A stretch of DNA of 64,000 nt. Origin: Psychrobacter lutiphocae DSM 21542. Its GTDB lineage: Bacteria; Pseudomonadota; Gammaproteobacteria; Pseudomonadales; Moraxellaceae. The DNA lies in assembly GCF_000382145.1 (NCBI RefSeq), contig NZ_KB907626.1, positions 1 to 64,000 on the forward strand, written 5' to 3'. Within the stretch, counting starts at the first letter, position 1; each line of letters starts with the position of its first letter. Below, piece by piece: positions 8,192 through 61,066 of the stretch. The position numbers and the translations under genes were made by a program. Under the pieces are notes generated by a model. It did no database searches. It saw only the letters and a list, made by a program, of their open reading frames with translations, and was not told the DNA's origin.

Positions 8192-8248
8192 AATAAGTTA
8201 CTCATAAATAATACTCAACGTCTTAATAGGTTAATATCTTAATACAGG

Positions 8249-8349
8249 TATAGTCGCAGTCAGATATTTGAGGTACAAGGCAACCGAGCGTAAGTACTAC
8301 AAATGTAGGCTTAGCGTGGTTAACGCCGTACCTCTTTTATATGACTATA
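8249..8349 (+). repeat. Repeat family A, 101-bp palindromic element, copy 1
   Basis: The element is bounded by TATAGTC / GACTATA, with a longer inner pairing in which GAGGTAC matches GTACCTC and further partial pairing follows toward the centre. A second copy, inverted and differing at about one base, lies at 45802-45902. It is non-coding and occupies the spacer between the SulP gene and the Usp gene. Confidence 0.85.
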
Positions 8350-14430: not shown

Positions 14431-14534
14431 ATACCTATTCTGAAAAACAAACTATCTTTTTCAAACTTGCTAAACCTACTATTTATAGCGTTTGCACTCG
14501 TTTTCCTCGATATTTTAATTTTCAGATTTGGTAT
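14431..14534 (+). repeat. Repeat family B, 104-bp element, copy 1
   Basis: Termini ATACCTATTCTGAAAA and TTTTCAGATTTGGTAT form imperfect inverted repeats. A second copy of the same length lies inverted at 38376-38479 and is about 80% identical by eye, including a long central identity around GTTTGCACTCGTTTTCCTCG. It is non-coding and sits between gluQ and dksA. Confidence 0.85.
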
Positions 14535-28640: not shown

Positions 28641-29057
28641 ATGGCAACCTTACAGTGCCGAGTAGTTAGTGCTCGTGAAGAGATATATGCTGGTGATATC
28701 AGCATGTTAATTGCGACGGGTGTTGATGGTGAAATTGGTATATTAGCAGGTCATACGCCACTTATAACTCTACTTAAACCAGGCTCAATGCGTATTCAAA
28801 CTCCAGATGGAAATGAAGAAATTGTTTATGTGTCTGGTGGCGTTCTTGAAGTTCAACCAAAAATGGTAACTGTGTTAGCAGATACAGCTGTACGAGCTGA
28901 TGACTTAGACGAAGCTAAAATCATCGAAGCCCGTAAGAAAGCGGAGCAAATGCTGGTGAATCAATCTGAAACCCTACAAACTAATGCAGCTTTAGCATCA
29001 CTTGCAGAGTCTGTTGCACAGTTACAAACGATTCGTAAGTATCGTAACCGAGCGTAG
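28641..29057 (+). CDS. atpC: ATP synthase F1 subunit epsilon
   Basis: A 138-residue subunit with an N-terminal beta sandwich (ATLQCRVVSAREEIYAGDIS, GEIGILAGHTPLITLLKPG) and a C-terminal helical pair that can inhibit ATP hydrolysis. The ATG at 28641 is chosen because the upstream in-frame ATG overlaps its GGAGAG ribosome site. It is the last gene of the operon and is followed by a strong terminator. Confidence 0.96.
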   Translation: MATLQCRVVSAREEIYAGDISMLIATGVDGEIGILAGHTPLITLLKPGSMRIQTPDGNEEIVYVSGGVLEVQPKMVTVLADTAVRADDLDEAKIIEARKKAEQMLVNQSETLQTNAALASLAESVAQLQTIRKYRNRA

Positions 29058-29102
29058 GCTGGTTAAATATTTTTATATTACATAATAGTGACTGATAAAA
29101 AT

Positions 29103-29130
29103 AACAGCCTACATTAGGCTGTTTTTTTTT
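29103..29130 (+). terminator. Terminator of the ATP synthase operon
   Basis: Stem AACAGCCT / AGGCTGTT with a five-base loop and a run of nine T, 46 bp after the atpC stop. Confidence 0.92.
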
Positions 29131-29275
29131 ATGCTAATATCGGTTATATTAACATTTACATTTCAATTCTATGAAAATTATATATACTGAACTAAACAGC
29201 AATCATTTTAGCGCATAAAACAGCTTGCTTTTAAAGATTGCTATTAAGAGTTTACAATTTTTGAGGAAAATAATA

Positions 29276-29992
29276 ATGTCCACTATTGATGAAGAACAAG
29301 CCCCAAGAATTTTGATTGTCGAAGATGACGAGCGGTTAGCTATGTTAACTCAAGATTATCTGATAAAAAATGGTATGGATGTTGCTATTGAAACTGATGG
29401 TAACCGTGCTATTCGCCGTATCATTAATGAGCAACCAGATCTAGTTGTGCTAGATGTGATGTTACCAGGAAGTGACGGACTAACTGTTTGTCGCGAAGTG
29501 CGTCCACATTTCCATAGCCCAATTTTGATGTTGACAGCACGTACCGAAGATATGGATCAGGTATTGGGTTTAGAAATGGGTGCTGATGACTATGTCGCTA
29601 AGCCTGCTCAACCTCGAGTTTTATTAGCCCGTATCCGTGCACTACTACGCCGATCAGAAAATACACCGTCAGAAGAAGTACAGCAACGCTTAGAATTTGG
29701 TGAGTTAATTATTGACAATGGTGGTCGTTCAGTAACCCTAAACGGCGAGTTGGTTGATTTCACCAGTGCTGAGTATGATTTGTTATGGTTACTAGCCTCT
29801 AATGCTGGCCGTATCTTGTCACGTGAAGATATCTTTGAGCGACTACGTGGTATTGAATATGATGGTCAAGATCGCTCGATTGACGTACGTATTTCTCGCA
29901 TTCGTCCAAAGATTGGTGATGATCCAGAAAATCCAAAACGTATTAAAACAGTTCGCAGTAAAGGCTATTTGTTCGTTAAAGAAGGTAGCTAA
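29276..29992 (+). CDS. rstA: OmpR-family response regulator, RstA-like
   Basis: A 238-residue regulator. The receiver domain is RILIVEDDERL through the phospho-Asp in LVVLDVMLPGSDG and the Lys in DDYVAKPAQPRVLLARIRALLRR. The winged-helix domain ends RTVRSKGYLFVKE-like (IKTVRSKGYLFVKEGS). The ATG at 29276 has GAGGAAAA upstream and is preferred over an earlier in-frame start. The receiver signature and the partner kinase favour RstA over OmpR. A strong terminator follows, before the kinase gene. Confidence 0.88.
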   Translation: MSTIDEEQAPRILIVEDDERLAMLTQDYLIKNGMDVAIETDGNRAIRRIINEQPDLVVLDVMLPGSDGLTVCREVRPHFHSPILMLTARTEDMDQVLGLEMGADDYVAKPAQPRVLLARIRALLRRSENTPSEEVQQRLEFGELIIDNGGRSVTLNGELVDFTSAEYDLLWLLASNAGRILSREDIFERLRGIEYDGQDRSIDVRISRIRPKIGDDPENPKRIKTVRSKGYLFVKEGS

Positions 29993-30088
29993 CTCTGCGC
30001 TGGATGTAAGTGATACACAGTCATTCGATTTAATACACCGTATATTCGTGAATGTGAGTATTTAATTAGACTGTTTGTGTTACAAAAT

Positions 30089-30120
30089 AAAAAAGCCAGC
30101 TATCAAGCTGGCTTTTTTAA
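30089..30120 (+). terminator. Strong terminator between the rstA-like and rstB-like genes
   Basis: Stem AAAAAGCCAGCT / AGCTGGCTTTTTT with a short loop and T-tract. It stands between a response regulator and its presumed kinase, 47 bp before the kinase ATG. Confidence 0.9.
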
Positions 30121-30166
30121 GTTAAAATGATAACTTAAAACACTATTGTATGTAATAAGATGCCAT

Positions 30167-31858
30167 ATGCCAATCTTCTCATCATTAAAACATAGTATAT
30201 TCTTGCGTATCTATGCTGGGCTGTTATTGGTCTGTTTGTTTGTGGCCATGTTTGCGCAGTTGTTAGTTGATACCATCAACAAAGAGCGAATCCAATCATA
30301 TCGAGAAAACGTTGCGACTGGCGCTTTATATCTTATTGGTTCAGGATTACAGCAGCAGGCATCAGATGTGCAGCGGGAGTATTGGTTAAATGATATTAGT
30401 CAGCTGTTTGGCAATAACTTTAGTATTGAGCCTGCATCGAATATTGATTTTAAGGCCAGTGAGCTAAAGCGCTTAGAAGAAGAAAAAACAGTAGTGCGCT
30501 ATGTAGCACAGCCCGCTTATGCAGATATCTTCCATCCTATTGAGGGTGAAGATAATGTGATTACAGTGCGTATAAGTAAGGTAACCGAGCAGCAAGTTCG
30601 GGCGATGGCTGTATTGCTACTCAATGACTTATCTTACTACAAGGGCTTAGCAGCCAAACAACATCGCCTTGCTGAGATATCAGAAAAATTTGCTTTCCCA
30701 TTGAGCATAGAAACCATTGAAGCGTTAGAGCTAGATGACGATCAGATGCGTCGGTTAGAGCGTGATGAAGTGGTGATGTTGTTCCGTGATAGTACCCGTA
30801 CAGATGACTCCTCTATCAAGATTATCGCCCCTTCTGAATTAGAGGGTATGGTAGTGGTTATTGGTCCTGTCAGCTTGTTTAAGTGGTTTCCGTTCAATCT
30901 AATTATCAGTGTGGTGCTGATCAGTATGTTCCTGATTAGTTTGGGTGTTTATGCCTTGATTTTTCCGTTAGAGCGCAAGTTACAGCTGATTCAGTCTGGT
31001 GTTAATGAAGTGGGTGAGGGTAATCTAGAGACTCAGGTGCAAGTAGTGGGTCAAGATGAAATCGCCCGTTTGGCGGCCACCTTTAACACCATGACCGAAC
31101 ATATTAAGCGCTTAATTGAATCCCAACGTGAGCTGACCCGTGCGGTATCCCATGAGTTAAGAACGCCAGTGGCGCGTATTCGTTTTGCAGTAGATATGTT
31201 GGCTGATACTGATGATCCTGAATCACGGCAAATGCAACGTGATTATATTGATGAAGATATTGAGTCACTTAATAGCTTGATTGATGAGATTTTGACCTAT
31301 GCTAAGCTAGAAGAAGGCTCGCCTAAGCTAGACCTTGAGCCAGTCAACTTACGGGAATTGGTCGAGCAAATCGTGCGTGAGACCAATGCGTTAGGCAAGC
31401 CGATTGAAGTGATTGGCGATCCACCTTCTGCCAAAGTCACAGCGGTTGCTGACAGACGCTACTTGCATCGAGTCGTACAAAACTTAGCCGGTAACGCACT
31501 GCGCTATGCCGAAACCAAAATCATCATCAGCGCAGGTGTGAATAAAGGTGATGCCTTTGTTTGTGTTGAGGATGATGGTCAGGGTATTCCTGAAGAAGAT
31601 AGGGATAAGGTATTTGTACCTTTTGCTCGTCTTGATGACAGTCGTACCAGAGCATCAGGTGGTTATGGCTTGGGTCTGTCTATTGTGTCACGTATTGCGT
31701 TCTGGTTTAATGGTAAAATGTCAGTCGATGAAAGCCCAGATTTAGGCGGTGCTCGCTTTATTATGCGTTGGCCGGTGCGTCCATTGACTCAGACTATTGC
31801 CGCTGATCAGCTGACCCAAGAGAAGGGCGAGCGTAAGATTATTGCTGAAGACAGCTAG
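30167..31858 (+). CDS. rstB: Sensor histidine kinase, RstB-like
   Basis: A 563-residue inner-membrane kinase. One membrane segment near residues 15-33 (IYAGLLLVCLFVAMFAQLLV), a periplasmic domain of about 210 residues, a second membrane segment (FNLIISVVLISMFLISLGVYALIF), and a HAMP linker follow in order. The phospho-acceptor His is in AVSHELRTPVARIRFAVDML. The ATPase domain has N-box LAGNALRYAE, VEDDGQGIPEED and GGYGLGLSIVSRI. The ATG at 30167 is preferred to an upstream TTG. The 3' untranslated region carries 42 bases identical to part of icd. Confidence 0.9.
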   Translation: MPIFSSLKHSIFLRIYAGLLLVCLFVAMFAQLLVDTINKERIQSYRENVATGALYLIGSGLQQQASDVQREYWLNDISQLFGNNFSIEPASNIDFKASELKRLEEEKTVVRYVAQPAYADIFHPIEGEDNVITVRISKVTEQQVRAMAVLLLNDLSYYKGLAAKQHRLAEISEKFAFPLSIETIEALELDDDQMRRLERDEVVMLFRDSTRTDDSSIKIIAPSELEGMVVVIGPVSLFKWFPFNLIISVVLISMFLISLGVYALIFPLERKLQLIQSGVNEVGEGNLETQVQVVGQDEIARLAATFNTMTEHIKRLIESQRELTRAVSHELRTPVARIRFAVDMLADTDDPESRQMQRDYIDEDIESLNSLIDEILTYAKLEEGSPKLDLEPVNLRELVEQIVRETNALGKPIEVIGDPPSAKVTAVADRRYLHRVVQNLAGNALRYAETKIIISAGVNKGDAFVCVEDDGQGIPEEDRDKVFVPFARLDDSRTRASGGYGLGLSIVSRIAFWFNGKMSVDESPDLGGARFIMRWPVRPLTQTIAADQLTQEKGERKIIAEDS

Positions 31859-31899
31859 TGTTTGGGTCTTGAGTTAAGCGACCAAGCTCAGCTAGATTG
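31858..31899. repeat. 42-bp exact copy of an internal icd segment
   Basis: These 42 bases are identical to plus-strand positions 58754-58795, which lie inside icd (a minus-strand gene, codons about 66-79). Similarity stops abruptly at both ends. The copy starts at the last base of the rstB stop codon and ends 9 bp before the rstB terminator stem. A plus-strand rstB transcript would thus carry a perfect antisense match to icd mRNA. Confidence 0.9.
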
Positions 31900-31907
31900 C
31901 TATTAAT

Positions 31908-31944
31908 AAAAGCCAGATGTGCAAAATGCGTGTCTGGCTTTTTT
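31908..31944 (+). terminator. Terminator of the rstB-like gene
   Basis: Stem AAAGCCAGA / TCTGGCTTT with a 15-base loop and six T, 50 bp after the stop codon. Confidence 0.85.
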
Positions 31945-32008
31945 GTTGGTGGCGGTTTTGTGGATCGTGCAAGTATCGAATTACGAAAACCCTTGCATGG
32001 TAAGGCAT

Positions 32009-32096
32009 GTAGGCTGGCATGGAGGTAACGACACCCAGCGATATTCAAATTTGTTATTTATAACATGTTGGGTATCGTCCCTCGACACCAACCTAC
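32009..32096. repeat. 88-bp imperfect palindrome
   Basis: The left arm GTAGGCTGGCATGGAGG and right arm CCTCGACACCAACCTAC pair over most of about 35 bases per side, around an AT-rich centre. It looks like a REP/MITE-type unit. No second copy was noticed in this window. Confidence 0.6.
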
Positions 32097-32237
32097 AAAT
32101 CGTGCAATCAATAAATGACGTAGAGTTTTGCACGATGCAAAGTCGCCCTTTCTGAAAGGGAGATTAGGGGGATTTTCAACGTGAGTGTGAATTGAAGGGG
32201 CGGTTTAGCCTCGATTGTAGCGGATATCCTTGGTGAG

Positions 32238-32361
32238 GCACAGGGTTACAGGCGCTTGGCTAGAGGCGGTATCGCTGAGTCAGGAACGCCTCTGGCCTTA
32301 GTGCCTGTCCCTGTGCAAGCCAAGATAGGAGCGTAAAGCGAGATGGGCTCCTGTTTGGCTT
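32238..32361. ncRNA. Two abutting GC-rich hairpins: candidate structured RNA or palindromic element
   Basis: Hairpin 1 (32238-32316) has three paired blocks: GCACAGGG/CCCTGTGC, ACAGGC/GCCTGT and GGCTAGAGGCG/CGCCTCTGGCC. That is 25 pairs with a single G-U. Hairpin 2 (32317-32361) starts at the very next base, with AAGCCAA/TTGGCTT and AGGAGC/GCTCCT. There is no T-tract on either side, so these are not ordinary terminators. The sequence is non-coding. I do not recognise it as a known RNA family; a REP-like element is the main alternative. Confidence 0.45.
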
Positions 32362-32411
32362 GGTGTGTGGTTTGGTTCGGCTAGGGGTGGCTGCTTGTCT
32401 TATTCTAGGTG

Positions 32412-33908
32412 CTAAATGTCTGTATCTGGTTTTTGTTTTTTAAGGTTTAATTTGTCACTTGAAGCAGTTTCTGTTTGGTTGGTGTCTTCAGCTTCTGGCA
32501 ATGTTTCTGACAGCAGTGGAATACGGACACATACTTGCAGTCCGCCTTCAGGATGATTGATGGCTTCGACGGTGCCGTGGTGCAGGGCTGCAATACGCTG
32601 AACGATAGCCAGACCCAATCCGCTGCCTTGGGTGGTACGAGCGGATTCACCACGCTCAAAAGGCTGCATAATGCGCTCTAGGTGGTCGTCTGCCACGCCA
32701 GGACCACAATCTCGGACACAGATGATGAGCTGTTCTTTGGCTTTGCGCACCATGCCAGGAGTTGAAACGGTGCTTTCTTCGTCTTGATCGAGAGTGTCAT
32801 GAGCATTGAAGGTTGGATTGATAGTAGCGGTAAGATAAATAGGAGGCTTGCCGTAGCGCTGAGCGTTGACAATGAGATTAATAATGAGACGTTTAATAGA
32901 TAAGGGGCGTACGGGAACTTTGCGTAGACCTTCTGACTGGTAAATAAACTCTAAAGGTGCAAACTGAACCATCACTTCATTGAAAATGTTATCCAGGTCG
33001 GTGAGGCGAACGGCTTCATCGGAACCATCCTTCATAAAGGAGATGAATTGTTCTAAAATAGCATCCATGTCTTCAATATCATAGATGAGACCTTCACGGA
33101 AAAACTCGTCTGGTAGCATTTCAGCGGTCAGGCGCATTCGAGTTAAAGGGGTGCGCAGATCATGCGAGATACCAGCTAGCATGATGGTACGCTCTTTTTG
33201 TGCTTGACTGAGCGTGGTAAATAGACGGTTAAATGCCATGTTGACGCGGCGAATCTCTGTTGCTCCTTTTTTGGTCGGCAAGCTGGTGGCGGTGCCTAAG
33301 CGCATATAGTTAGTGGCGGCCTGTTGCAGTTTACGTAACGGGCGATTGAGCTGACGAACTAGCAGTAAAATGGTGATCAAAGTGAACAATGGAATGCCAA
33401 GTAAGAAGAAAGCGAAGGTACTTGGACTGTATTGTGCATAAAATATAACAGGTTCACGTATCCAAAACTCTGGAGATGCTGTATCCTGAACCCAGAGCTG
33501 GGGTGTTGGTTTGAATTTAAAGTAAACCACACTCTCGCGACCAAGCTGTTGGCTGATTTCTTTTTGAATAACATCAGTAAAGAATTCAACCACAGCTTTA
33601 TCTGAAACGTCAGGAAACTGGCTTGGATCGTCGACAACCACGATATGATTGTTAGCGAGAATCCAATTGCTGACTTCTTCGTTGTCTGCCCAATGCTCAC
33701 GAGTTGCTGTCACTAGCTTTAACTCAGTGGTTAAGTAACGAGCATGGTTTTTTAACTCAGGTAGATACAAGCTACGCCAAAAGAACCAGATAGAAACAAC
33801 CACGCTAATACTCACCATTAGCATCACTGCTATGGTGGTTTGCCACGTGTTGGATCTGGGTCTTAGGCTGAGCCGAGATAAAAATGAGCGGAACGAAGTA
33901 TTGGTCAT
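32412..33908 (-). CDS. envZ: EnvZ-like osmosensor histidine kinase
   Basis: A 498-residue inner-membrane kinase. The first membrane segment is near residues 25-45 (TTIAVMLMVSISVVVSIWFF), followed by a periplasmic domain of about 130 residues, then FAFFLLGIPLFTLITILLLV and HAMP. The phospho-acceptor His lies in GISHDLRTPLTRMRLTAEML, typical of EnvZ. The ATPase domain has NLIVNAQRYG, DCGPGVADD and GSGLGLAIVQRI. An ATG at 33908 is preferred to the TTG two codons upstream. No ompR gene is adjacent: the upstream neighbour is rpsP on the other strand. Confidence 0.85.
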   Translation of the reverse strand: MTNTSFRSFLSRLSLRPRSNTWQTTIAVMLMVSISVVVSIWFFWRSLYLPELKNHARYLTTELKLVTATREHWADNEEVSNWILANNHIVVVDDPSQFPDVSDKAVVEFFTDVIQKEISQQLGRESVVYFKFKPTPQLWVQDTASPEFWIREPVIFYAQYSPSTFAFFLLGIPLFTLITILLLVRQLNRPLRKLQQAATNYMRLGTATSLPTKKGATEIRRVNMAFNRLFTTLSQAQKERTIMLAGISHDLRTPLTRMRLTAEMLPDEFFREGLIYDIEDMDAILEQFISFMKDGSDEAVRLTDLDNIFNEVMVQFAPLEFIYQSEGLRKVPVRPLSIKRLIINLIVNAQRYGKPPIYLTATINPTFNAHDTLDQDEESTVSTPGMVRKAKEQLIICVRDCGPGVADDHLERIMQPFERGESARTTQGSGLGLAIVQRIAALHHGTVEAINHPEGGLQVCVRIPLLSETLPEAEDTNQTETASSDKLNLKKQKPDTDI

Positions 33909-34125
33909 TGGCAAGGTCGCTGTATTGATGTATATCTGTATTATGTATTAAATGTTCATGGCTAACGCATGGTTTGATTATATAATATAATGTACATGAT
34001 AAATCGTATAGGTGGCTGCGGATATAACTGATATTAACAGTTTTGTTAACTTAAAGGTTTCCAAGTCATTAGTATTCTGATATAATTATGCCCTTTTTGG
34101 TATACCTACGGAAGAGAGAACTCAA

Positions 34126-34389
34126 ATGGTTGTTATTCGTTTAGCACGGGGCGGTGCCAAAAAACGCCCATTCTATCAAGTTGTTGTAGCAGATCAGCGT
34201 CGTTCACGCGATGGCCGTTACATCGAAAATCTAGGTTTTTATAACCCATTAGCGAAAGGTCAAGAAGTTGAGCTTCGCTTGGATATGGAAGCTTACAATG
34301 CTTGGATCGCAAAAGGTGCACAACCTTCAGATCGCGTTAAAGCATTGGCAAAAGGTTACAAGCCTGCAACTGAAGAAGAAACTGCATAA
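34126..34389 (+). CDS. rpsP: 30S ribosomal protein bS16
   Basis: An 87-residue ribosomal protein with the standard start [20 protein letters not shown] and [14 protein letters not shown]. It is the first gene of rpsP-rimM-trmD-rplS, the usual order. TATAAT at about 34082 upstream could be its -10 element. GGAAGAGAG precedes the ATG. Confidence 0.98.
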
Positions 34390-34545
34390 TTCAAATCTAA
34401 TTTTTGTAATTGGCGAGTTCAGTAGATCATAACCGATTGCAAGGTAGATTTGAGCATTTCTTTTTTAATTAACTATTGTGAAAGAGGGTGTGTTTTTAGA
34501 ACAACACCTGTATTTTATAATAATTATTGTTGCTGAGAAGGTCTT

Positions 34546-38375: not shown

Positions 38376-38479
38376 ATACCAAATCTAAAAATTAAGCTAT
38401 CGAGGAAAACGAGTGCAAACGCTACAAGTAGTAGGTTTAGCGAGTTTGACAAAGATAGGTTATTTTTTAGAAAAGGTAT
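38376..38479 (-). repeat. Repeat family B, 104-bp element, copy 2
   Basis: Inverted relative to the copy at 14431-14534 and of identical length. The ends ATACCAAATCTAAAA and TTTTTAGAAAAGGTAT are the family termini. It lies directly after a terminator. Confidence 0.85.
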
Positions 38480-44210: not shown

Positions 44211-44688
44211 TAAAAACAGTTAATCATCTGTTAAAACAGCAATAAACATAAGCCTATAATAACAGCTAATACCTGCTTTTCTCTAGTATCTGAATGCAAC
44301 AGAATCCAAGGCAAGTAACCCGAACGTAACGCAAGCCTACCGCTAATGGCAACCTATACCCACTTCCACACCGAATGTAACAATACATTTCAGTAAACAA
44401 GTGTAAACTATTTTATTCAAAAATAAAAGCATTCGTCCAAAAAATTATTCGTATTTTCGTATTAACGTTAACGTGACAGGCACGTAAAAAAAAACAGCCA
44501 ATCGCATTGGCGTTGGCTGTTTGTCCTGTTGTTTGTTTTATTGACTGTCTGGTTGCTTGTCGTGATAGGCTTATTTTTAAATGCTGGCTATCTTCTTGCA
44601 CTCTGATAAGGCGTTGGCTGTTTGTCCTGTTGTTTGTTTTATTGACTGTCTGGTTGCTTGTCGTGATAGGCTTATTTTTAAATGCTGG
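44211..44688. other. Spacer between bolA and the M48 peptidase gene
   Basis: 478 bp. It holds a minus-strand terminator (44486-44522) and most of a two-copy 101-bp tandem duplication (44509-44710). The rest is AT-rich with no credible gene. Confidence 0.6.
44486..44522 (-). terminator. Terminator of the M48 peptidase gene
   Basis: On the minus strand, stem AAACAGCCAA / TTGGCTGTTT followed by a long T run. It overlaps the distal end of the tandem duplication, so only the outer copy is followed by a T-tract. Confidence 0.8.
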
Positions 44689-44710
44689 CTATCTTCTTGC
44701 ACTCTGATAA
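44509..44710. repeat. Two-copy 101-bp direct tandem duplication at the 3' end of the M48 gene
   Basis: Copy 1 is 44509-44609 and copy 2 is 44610-44710, apparently identical. Copy 2 includes the last codons and stop of the M48 peptidase gene. It appears to be a recent local duplication, since no differences are visible. Confidence 0.95.
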
Positions 44711-45501
44711 TAAGGCATTACACTAGGAATCAAAGACTTGAGTGTATTGATACGAGTTGAGCTGGATGGATGGGTACTCAAGAATTGTGGTGGCGCACCC
44801 TGACTGGCCCGACTCATTTTTTCCCATAAGCTAACCGCTGCATTCGGATCATAGCCAGCCTTAGCCATCAATACCAAGCCTATCTTATCTGCCTCAGCTT
44901 CTTGCGTACGGCTATGCGGTAAGCTAATGCCTAGATCACTTAGGATAGAAGCAGCTTGTGTCTGACCTTGTGACAGACCAAACACGCTGGCGGCAATACC
45001 GAGACCAACCTGAGTTAACTGTTGGCTTGAGGCTCTTTCACGAGAGTGCTCACGAATCGCATGTGCCATTTCGTGACCCATAATGGCCGCAATTTCAGCA
45101 TCAGTTAACTGTAAACGATCTATAATACCAGTGTAAAACATAATCTTACCACCTGGCAGAACAAAGGCGTTCATCTCATTAGATTTAATGGTATGAACTT
45201 CCCATTTCCAATTAAGCGCATCGGCACGATACAAGCCAACTTGTTGGATCAAATTGCGTGAAATGCGATTGAGACGGGCTGTCATCGCAGGGTTGGTATC
45301 GAGCTGACCTTTGGCTCTGGCTTCTTGTAGCAGTTGGTTATAGCCTTGAGCAGATGCCTGCATGATTTGCTCATTAGACACCAGCAGTAATTGCTGTCTT
45401 TCACTACCAAGCACACCTGAGTTGGTAGTCGAGCTACATCCTGTTAATGCCATAACCGACATTGAAGCGGCTAAGGTACTACGAATTAAAAATCTTTTCA
45501 T
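44689..45501 (-). CDS. M48 family metallopeptidase, lipoprotein
   Basis: A 270-residue periplasmic or outer-membrane-attached zinc protease resembling E. coli LoiP/YggG. The lipobox is VMALTGCSS near residue 22. The zinc site is HEMAH in AAIMGHEMAHAIREHSRER, with the third ligand Glu in RTQEAEADKIGLVLMAKAGYDP. The terminal LSTHPSSSTRINTLKSLIP is typical. The stop codon lies within a tandem duplication. Confidence 0.92.
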   Translation of the reverse strand: MKRFLIRSTLAASMSVMALTGCSSTTNSGVLGSERQQLLLVSNEQIMQASAQGYNQLLQEARAKGQLDTNPAMTARLNRISRNLIQQVGLYRADALNWKWEVHTIKSNEMNAFVLPGGKIMFYTGIIDRLQLTDAEIAAIMGHEMAHAIREHSRERASSQQLTQVGLGIAASVFGLSQGQTQAASILSDLGISLPHSRTQEAEADKIGLVLMAKAGYDPNAAVSLWEKMSRASQGAPPQFLSTHPSSSTRINTLKSLIPSVMPYYQSARR

Positions 45502-45561: not shown

Positions 45562-45910
45562 CTAGGGCGTGTCTTACATTCGTGCCATTGCTTTCACATG
45601 TGTACATCCCTTATACATGGAACTACATGGATAAAAATACATGAGTAAAAAGCTAAATCTTGAGATTTGGTGTTAAATAACGGCCTAATATGATCACGTT
45701 AATACGATGACGTTATCTGCGTTACTTTTCTCGCTTAACTGTGATGTCTGACTGTGATTGGTCTTTTGTTTATCTTTTTATCATTATCCTCAACATGAAG
45801 ATATAGTCATATAACAGAGGTACGGCGTTAACCACGCTAAGCCTACATTTGTAGTACTTACGCTCGGTTGCCTTGTACCTCAAATATCTGACTGCGACTA
45901 TACGACCTAG
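45562..45910 (+). repeat. Repeat family C, copy 2, interrupted by a repeat A element
   Basis: The left end CTAGGGCGTGTCTTAC is the family-C terminus. The inner blocks TTATCTGCGTTA and AACATGAAG correspond to 59459-59520 of the complete copy. After AACATGAAG the sequence becomes repeat A for 101 bp, then resumes with CGACCTAG, the expected right terminus (family CGCCCTAG). Without A, the element is about 248 bp. Confidence 0.75.
45802..45902 (-). repeat. Repeat family A, copy 2, nested in repeat C
   Basis: Inverted copy of 8249-8349, same 101-bp length, differing at about one base. It begins TATAGTCAT and ends GCGACTATA and interrupts the right end of a family-C element, which shows that family A is or was mobile. 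Confidence 0.88.
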
Positions 45911-46255: not shown

Positions 46256-46331
<76 letters not shown>

Positions 46332-46399: not shown

Positions 46400-46475
<76 letters not shown>

Positions 46476-51983: not shown

Positions 51984-52020
51984 CAGACTTATGTTGCTTT
52001 AGTTGTAGCGCATCTGAACT

Positions 52021-52092
52021 ATAATAAACCGCTAAGCTATAATAAACCGCTAAGCCATAATAAACCGCTAAGCCATAATAAACCGCTAAACT
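52021..52092 (+). repeat. Four 18-bp tandem repeats after phoR
   Basis: Units of ATAATAAACCGCTAAGC(T/C), four in a row, the last slightly diverged. There are no spacers, so it is a simple variable-number array and not CRISPR. It lies between the phoR stop and the shared terminator. Confidence 0.9.
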
Positions 52093-52141
52093 AACATGCT
52101 GTTAATGAAGCAAGCTGTTAATTAAATAAGTAATAGCCAAT

Positions 52142-56760: not shown

Positions 56761-58989
56761 TTAAAATGACTCGATTGCGTCATTGAAGGTCTTACTTGGG
56801 CGCATTACGCTTTCAGCAACCGATTCATCAGCAAGGTAGTAGCCATGTAAATCGACAGGTTTGCCTTGAACCTCAAGTAGCTCTTTCACGATTGCGTCTT
56901 CGTTACTTTCAAGAGTTTGTGCTAATGTTGAGAACTTCTCTTTTAGCTCAGCGTCTTGATCTTGAGCGGCAAGCTCTTCTGCCCAGAATTTGGCTAAGTA
57001 AAAGTGGCTACCACGGTTATCAAGCTCACCTGTCTTGCGTGAAGGTGACTTGTTTTCTACCAACAGTTTTTCAGTTGCTTTATCTAGTGTATCTGCCAAT
57101 ACTTGGGCTTTTGGATTGTCTTGGGTTTTTGCTAGATGCTCTAAGGAAACTGTCAATGCTAAGAACTCACCTAGTGAGTCCCAACGTAAGTGGTTTTCTT
57201 CAAGTAGCTGCTGAACGTGTTTTGGTGCAGAGCCGCCAGCGCCTGTTTCGAACAAACCACCACCTTTCATTAAAGGAACAATCGATAGCATTTTAGCACT
57301 GGTACCTAGCTCTAAAATTGGGAATAGGTCGGTTAGGTAATCTCGTAAGATATTACCAGTTGCAGAAATGGTATCTTGACCACGAGCGACACGCTCTAAT
57401 GTATAACGCATTGCACGAACTTGAGACATAATTTCAATTTTTAAGCCCTCAGTGTCATGATCTTTTAGGTAGGTTTTAACCTTCTTGATAAGCTCATTTT
57501 CGTGTGGACGGTATGGGTCTAACCAGAATACAACAGGGGTATTTGACTCACGAGCACGAGTAACGGCAAGTTTTACCCAGTCTTGGATCGGCTCATCTTT
57601 TACCTGACACATACGCCAGATATCGCCTTTTTCAACCGCTTGTTCCATTAATACTTCATTTGTATCAACATCAACAATACGAGCTATACCCGCATCGCTT
57701 GACTCAAAGGTCTTGTCGTGGGAGCCGTATTCTTCTGCTTTTTGTGCCATCAGACCTACGTTTGGTACCGTACCCATAGTGGTTGGGTCAAAGTTACCAT
57801 GCCATTTACAGAAGTTAATCATTTCTTGATAAATACGTGCAAACGTCGATTCTGGCATGACGGCTTTACAATCATATAGCTTGCCATCAGCACCCCACAT
57901 CTTACCACCATTACGGATCATCGCTGGCATTGAGGCATCAACGATCACATCGCTTGGAGAGTGGAAGTTGGTAATACCTTTTGCAGAATCCACCATCGCC
58001 AATCCTGGACGGTGTTCTTGACACGCATGTAAGTCGCGTTCAATTTCATCACGAGTTGATTCAGGTAGGGACTTGATTTTGTCATATAAGTCAGCCATAC
58101 CGTTGTTGACGTTGACACCAAGCTCTTCAAATAGCTTACCGTGTTTTTCAAATGCATCTTTATAGTAAATACGAACGGCGTGACCAAAGACGATGGGGTG
58201 TGATACCTTCATCATAGTTGCTTTAACGTGTAATGAGAACAAGATACCGGCTTCACGACAGTCTTCCATTTCACGCTCATAGAATTCAAGCAGTGATTTT
58301 TTGCTCATCGACATAAGATCGATGACTTCTTTATCTTGTAACGCAATTTCAGGCTTGAGTACTTGAGTCTCTCCATTGTCAAGCAACAGCTCCATGCGTA
58401 CTGTACGTGCCTTATCTAAGGTCATTGATTGCTCACCGTGGTAGAAGTCGCCACCATGCATATGTGAGACGTGAGTTCTTGACCATTGTTTCCATTCACC
58501 CATTGAATGAGGGTGTTTGCGCGCATAGTTTTTGACTGCTTTTGGTGCACGGCGATCTGAGTTACCCTCACGCAGTACTGGGTTGACCGCACTACCTAGC
58601 GCCTTACCATAACGCTTACGTAGCTCAATCTCTTCTTCTGTTTGGGGGTCTTCTGGGAAGTCGGGAAGAGCATAACCTTTGCTTTGTAACTCTTTGATAG
58701 CAGCTTTTAATTGTTGAACAGAAGCACTGATATTAGGTAGTTTAATGATATTTGTGTTTGGGTCTTGAGTTAAGCGACCAAGCTCAGCTAGATTGTTAGG
58801 AACGCGCTGATCTTCTGTTAAGTAATCTGGAAATTCAGCCAATACACGAGCAGCAACTGAGATATCGCTGGTTTCAACTTCGATATCTGCTGTCTTGGCA
58901 AAGGCTTTGACAATTGGTAAAAAGGATAAGGTTGCAAGTGCAGGGGCTTCATCAGTTTTGGTGTAAATAATTTTTGACATTTTTGACAT
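56761..58989 (-). CDS. icd: Monomeric NADP-dependent isocitrate dehydrogenase
   Basis: A 742-residue TCA-cycle enzyme of the monomeric IDH type (usual length 735-745), unrelated in layout to the dimeric E. coli Icd. Blocks include [40 protein letters not shown] (isocitrate/Mg site), [38 protein letters not shown] and [17 protein letters not shown]. The ATG at 58989 has AGAGGAA upstream. Codons about 66-79 ([14 protein letters not shown]) are duplicated base-for-base at 31858-31899. Confidence 0.98.
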
Positions 58990-60953: not shown

Positions 60954-61066
60954 ATATTTTTTAACAATCTATATTTTTTAACAATCTATACTTTTTAACA
61001 GCTCATACTTTTTAACAACCCATACTTTTTAACAACCCATACTTTTTAACAACCCATACTTTTTTT
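60954..61066 (+). repeat. 17-bp tandem array upstream of ubiC
   Basis: Six full units of ATA(C/T)TTTTTAACAA(C/T)C(C/T)-type sequence plus a partial seventh. The last three full units are identical. The array ends 22 bp before the first possible ubiC ATG, within the promoter or leader region. Confidence 0.92.

Follow-up and report, generated by a model that had tools for sequence, protein, structure and literature searches.

The window analysed here comprises 64,000 nucleotides from Psychrobacter lutiphocae DSM 21542 (contig NZ_KB907626.1, positions 1 to 64,000). A 42-nt sequence occurs in it at two places, once behind a gene for a sensor histidine kinase and once within the gene for isocitrate dehydrogenase, icd. 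The features that matter for what follows are:

30146..31858, + strand: gene for an RstB-like sensor histidine kinase with HAMP, HisKA and HATPase_c domains; the start is that of a mechanical listing of open reading frames
31858..31899, + strand: 42-nt copy of icd in antisense orientation, located after the rstB stop codon and ahead of the terminator; exact match
31908..31945, + strand: terminator-like hairpin and T run of rstB, from sequence and fold; a similar hairpin is found in the nearest relative
56761..58989, - strand: icd, monomeric NADP-dependent isocitrate dehydrogenase (PF03971, TIGR00178)
58754..58795, - strand: the part of icd that was copied (mRNA nt 195-236, codons 65-79)

The identity of icd is clear from its score with TIGR00178 (1333.4 bits, above the cut-off of 950). 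The best NCBIfam model for the kinase is RstB, with 298.7 bits against a curated cut-off of 478, and the proteins that we call RstA-like (272.8 bits, cut-off 330) and EnvZ-like (306.4 bits, cut-off 415) likewise score below the NCBIfam cut-offs. The stem of the hairpin behind rstB is unbroken over about 15 pairs, which include G-U pairs, and TTTTTT comes after it. The rstB gene and the EnvZ-like gene are convergent wherever both were identified (33 of 33 loci), the aligned ends lying 90 to 866 nt apart; the survey took in 35 loci, one of them our own and some genomes being represented twice, and two loci were without the second gene. The gap would seem a tolerant place, where an event of the kind discussed below may do little harm. 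Beyond the terminator the gap contains high-copy dispersed repeats (31964-32119 and 32166-32373), which have at least 65 matches in the same genome, self included (40 of 62 candidates scored). An Rfam match to Flavo-1 (RF01705; 45 bits, gathering threshold 42) at 32203-32349 perhaps reflects no more than the palindromic shape of the repeat.

The 42-nt copy and its source

An exact search of the whole window bore out the central observation of the initial annotation, that 31858-31899 and 58754-58795 are identical on the + strand at 42 of 42 positions. The sequence has no other match on the + strand of the window and none on the - strand. The copies are thus direct repeats, 27 kb apart on one contig. 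The annotation had also stated that similarity ends with the 42-mer on either side; this holds except to the right, where identity runs three bases further with one mismatch (45 nt, 98%), which is nothing special. When 301 bases around the copy were compared with the same genome, the matches were the query itself, icd, and a single place belonging to a repeat further right.

The placement given in the annotation was likewise correct at both ends. The first base of the copy is the G of the rstB stop codon, TAG, and 8 nt separate its last base from the A-run of the hairpin. The corresponding part of icd, described earlier as codons about 66-79, runs from the third base of codon 65 to the second base of codon 79. 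The two genes are encoded on opposite strands, so transcription through the end of rstB would yield a segment complementary to icd mRNA.

The match is a duplication and not a product of chance, as had been claimed: each of 20 sequences simulated from the window with a fourth-order Markov model had 15-19 nt as the length of its longest exact repeat, direct or inverted, which rules out a chance match of 42 nt. Four repeats in the window are longer. They are a tandem duplication (101 nt), a dispersed inverted repeat (88 nt), two tRNA-Gly genes (76 nt) and a tandem array (44 nt). The first is an exact duplication of a 101-bp unit (44509-44710) that overlaps the end of an open reading frame at 44689..45501 on the - strand. 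The second is an exact 88-nt inverted repeat with a MITE-like look, in two intergenic-looking places (8248-8335 and 45816-45903), and the third consists of identical tRNA-Gly(GCC) genes (46256-46331 and 46400-46475). Tandem arrays with a unit of 17-18 bp lie at 52019-52093 and 60954-61064. A further exact match, of 27 nt (14486-14512 and 38398-38424), belongs, as its exact core, to a family of dispersed repeats about 100 nt long, of which the sampled stretches contain many.

Pairs of this kind were also sought in 463,270 sampled bases of the 3.17-Mb genome, made up of the window and 20 other stretches. With E values up to 1e-3, 17 pairs had exactly one match per place. Exact identity was seen in two of them, the icd pair and one of 91 nt starting at the first base of another contig (C3); three more were 27-40 nt long with 92-96% identity, and the remainder were longer and diverged. 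That two exact pairs turned up suggests that such scars are rare, though the sample covered only a small part of the possible pairs. Contig C3 also holds a CRISPR-like array (L085, 3541 to about 5310) with a 28-nt repeat at a spacing of about 60 nt, which resembles type I-F.

Distribution among relatives and age of the copy

At the protein level, RstB is 88-89% identical to its counterparts in the named relatives P. phenylpyruvicus, P. piechaudii and P. pasteurii. With up to three mismatches allowed, the 42-mer was found in three of 105 Psychrobacter genomes, twice in our own and once each in two others (G081 and G013), where it lies within icd in both; a second copy is thus confined to our genome. 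The end of rstB was found in 104 of the 105. In a further search, 16 of 35 other genomes of the genus had one match to the segment, always away from the match to rstB. Loci were available for 30 of the 40 genomes matching in the segment-region search and for 30 of the 104 matching in the rstB-end search, own included, and the remaining ones were judged from match coordinates and the pattern search. The match was confirmed inside icd for G081, G013 and the nearest relative, G035. As the segment lies within icd in the relatives examined, icd is the source and the stretch behind rstB the copy.

In G035, 85% identity over the end of rstB gives way at the stop codon, where similarity to the window stops; the spacer that follows is unrelated to icd and leads to a terminator like that of the window. 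When 43 distinct 120-nt spacers, own included, were scored against the 42-mer, the score was 41 for our own and at most 13 for any other. The scoring left out six loci anchored on an envZ-like paralogue (L018, L027, L029, L030, L032 and L033), and no copy was seen by eye in the spacers of L018, L027, L029, L032 and L033. The initial annotation had proposed to compare the spacers of related genomes for a segment kept complementary to icd, and would have taken its absence from close relatives as a refutation; the copy is indeed absent from them. G035 has a further stretch (L101, 266-719), about 390 nt past the end of its icd, that matches the first 459 nt of icd at 75% and is possibly a second icd gene; in the window, no second icd-like reading frame was seen adjacent to icd.

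The draft status of the genome, with its 78 contigs, would allow the copy to be an error of assembly. Against this, rstB and a like terminator occur in the same order in G035, so that an error would need two false joins within about 40 nt, and we regard it as very improbable.

The icd gene of G035 differs from ours at five of the 42 positions, indicating that the donor was the icd of the same species or one nearly identical to it. Between the two icd genes 269 of 740 third positions differ, whereas the copy and our icd differ at none of the 42, which shows the copy to be young. With a simple Jukes-Cantor estimate in which third positions of icd are taken as neutral, the probability that 42 unconstrained nt remain without a change is 4.6e-5 for a copy dating from the split between the two genomes and rises to 5% for one of 0.3 times that age. 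By this measure the copy probably has less than a third of the age of the split. The lack of drift from icd follows from youth, and it is no sign of selection.

Origin of the copy

We consider the copy to be a recombination scar, with a probability of roughly 85%. The initial annotation had allowed that it might be a mere scar, and this is now the best explanation. Icd DNA of the species itself, either from a sister cell through transformation or from within the cell during repair or replication, would have been joined at both ends into the gap behind rstB by homology-poor (illegitimate) recombination or by template switching. A single short-patch event would suffice, and it probably replaced a large part of what previously lay between stop codon and terminator. 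The copy is recent and most likely neutral, as it disrupts neither the reading frame of rstB nor the terminator. We infer each of the mechanism, replacement over insertion, and neutrality.

Replacement is favoured by the length of the spacer. The distance from stop codon to terminator is 49 nt in our genome. In relatives it is 59, 94 and 108 nt (three measured by script) and 34 and 63 nt (two others, measured by eye). A pure insertion implies an older spacer of 8 nt, against 34-108 nt in these five. This bears on a variant counted within the scar reading, a template switch inside the cell that inserted the segment with no loss of spacer and no uptake of DNA. Such a switch would leave an identical scar; source and target, moreover, share one contig at a distance of 27 kb, and any uptake of DNA is hypothetical. 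The variant nevertheless needs the 8-nt older spacer, which sits poorly with five relatives that have a like terminator, and we hold it to be unlikely, with a minor share of the probability of a scar.

No excess of microhomology was found between the 42-mer and the spacer of G035, a result that speaks to a limited extent against short-patch recombination, though this spacer has diverged too far to serve as the ancestral sequence; against it, 54% of random 42-mers from the window (39% when matched for G+C) scored locally at least as well as the copy. The genome encodes ComEC and DprA domains. These were also found in 10 and 11, respectively, of 14 control genomes, E. coli included, so their presence proves no competence.

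Direct repeats on one contig could also be the attachment sites of a mobile element or repeats carried as its cargo. The four tyrosine integrase matches of the genome, however, are all on other contigs, none (PF00589) being found on the contig of the window. A search of viral contigs with a 26-nt pattern gave no match, and neither did one of plasmid and phage collections with the 42-mer. A mobile vector or att repeat was rejected on these grounds, and we consider the mobile-element origin exceedingly improbable.

Possible effects on icd mRNA

The copy might be more than a scar if it acted on the gene from which it came. The rstB mRNA, or a 3' piece of it, would be a putative antisense RNA private to the species, which would pair with icd codons 65-79 and lower or cleave icd mRNA. 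The complementarity is perfect over 42 bp, with a computed duplex energy of -80.8 kcal/mol that would make for a very stable pairing, and the position between stop codon and terminator would include the segment in the transcript. To judge from the sequence, pairing between the two mRNAs is physically possible.

Several points speak against such a role. The pairing segment is not kept among relatives, and the lack of drift is accounted for by youth alone. The target lies deep within the coding region. No Rfam family covers the segment: a scan of 29000-34500 with E values up to 0.5 gave six matches, none of them on the copy. Antisense orientation itself would have had a prior chance of one half. 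Among the literature matches listed, none dealt by title with an antisense or UTR-derived sRNA for icd or RstB. With no conservation in relatives, a conserved antisense regulator was rejected, and the proposal of the initial annotation, that an antisense segment in the 3'-UTR links a two-component system to the TCA cycle, finds no support where a second copy occurs in one of 105 genomes and the spacer of the nearest relative is unrelated. We therefore think it very improbable that the segment regulates icd. The same low probability applies to its evolutionary form, that a short-patch copy gave rstB mRNA a 42-nt antisense arm through which rstB expression would now lower icd mRNA in this species alone. 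If true, a trans-acting antisense link would have been born in a single mutational step and be seen directly.

Comparison with known systems

The 3'-UTR-derived trans-acting sRNAs of enterobacteria are transcribed, usually conserved, and pair by short imperfect stretches. The segment behind rstB resembles them in that a potential pairing segment follows a stop codon and precedes an intrinsic terminator. It is unlike them in being private to one species and a perfect copy of part of a gene.

The scar has a closer counterpart in Acinetobacter, in which a short segment from within the genome reportedly comes to lie at a site unrelated to it, probably by substitution. The resemblance is that the copy is a short ectopic segment identical to another place in the genome (42 of 42) and that the bacterial order is the same or near; the length of the spacer favours a substitution in our genome. 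The two differ in that junction microhomology was not detected here and that the end state alone is seen, no event having been observed. Short-patch double illegitimate recombination (SPDIR) is the name given to the process for Acinetobacter baylyi (PMC7192050). As a scar, the copy matters little; it is a clear natural example in Psychrobacter of the sort of short ectopic gene copy described experimentally in Acinetobacter.
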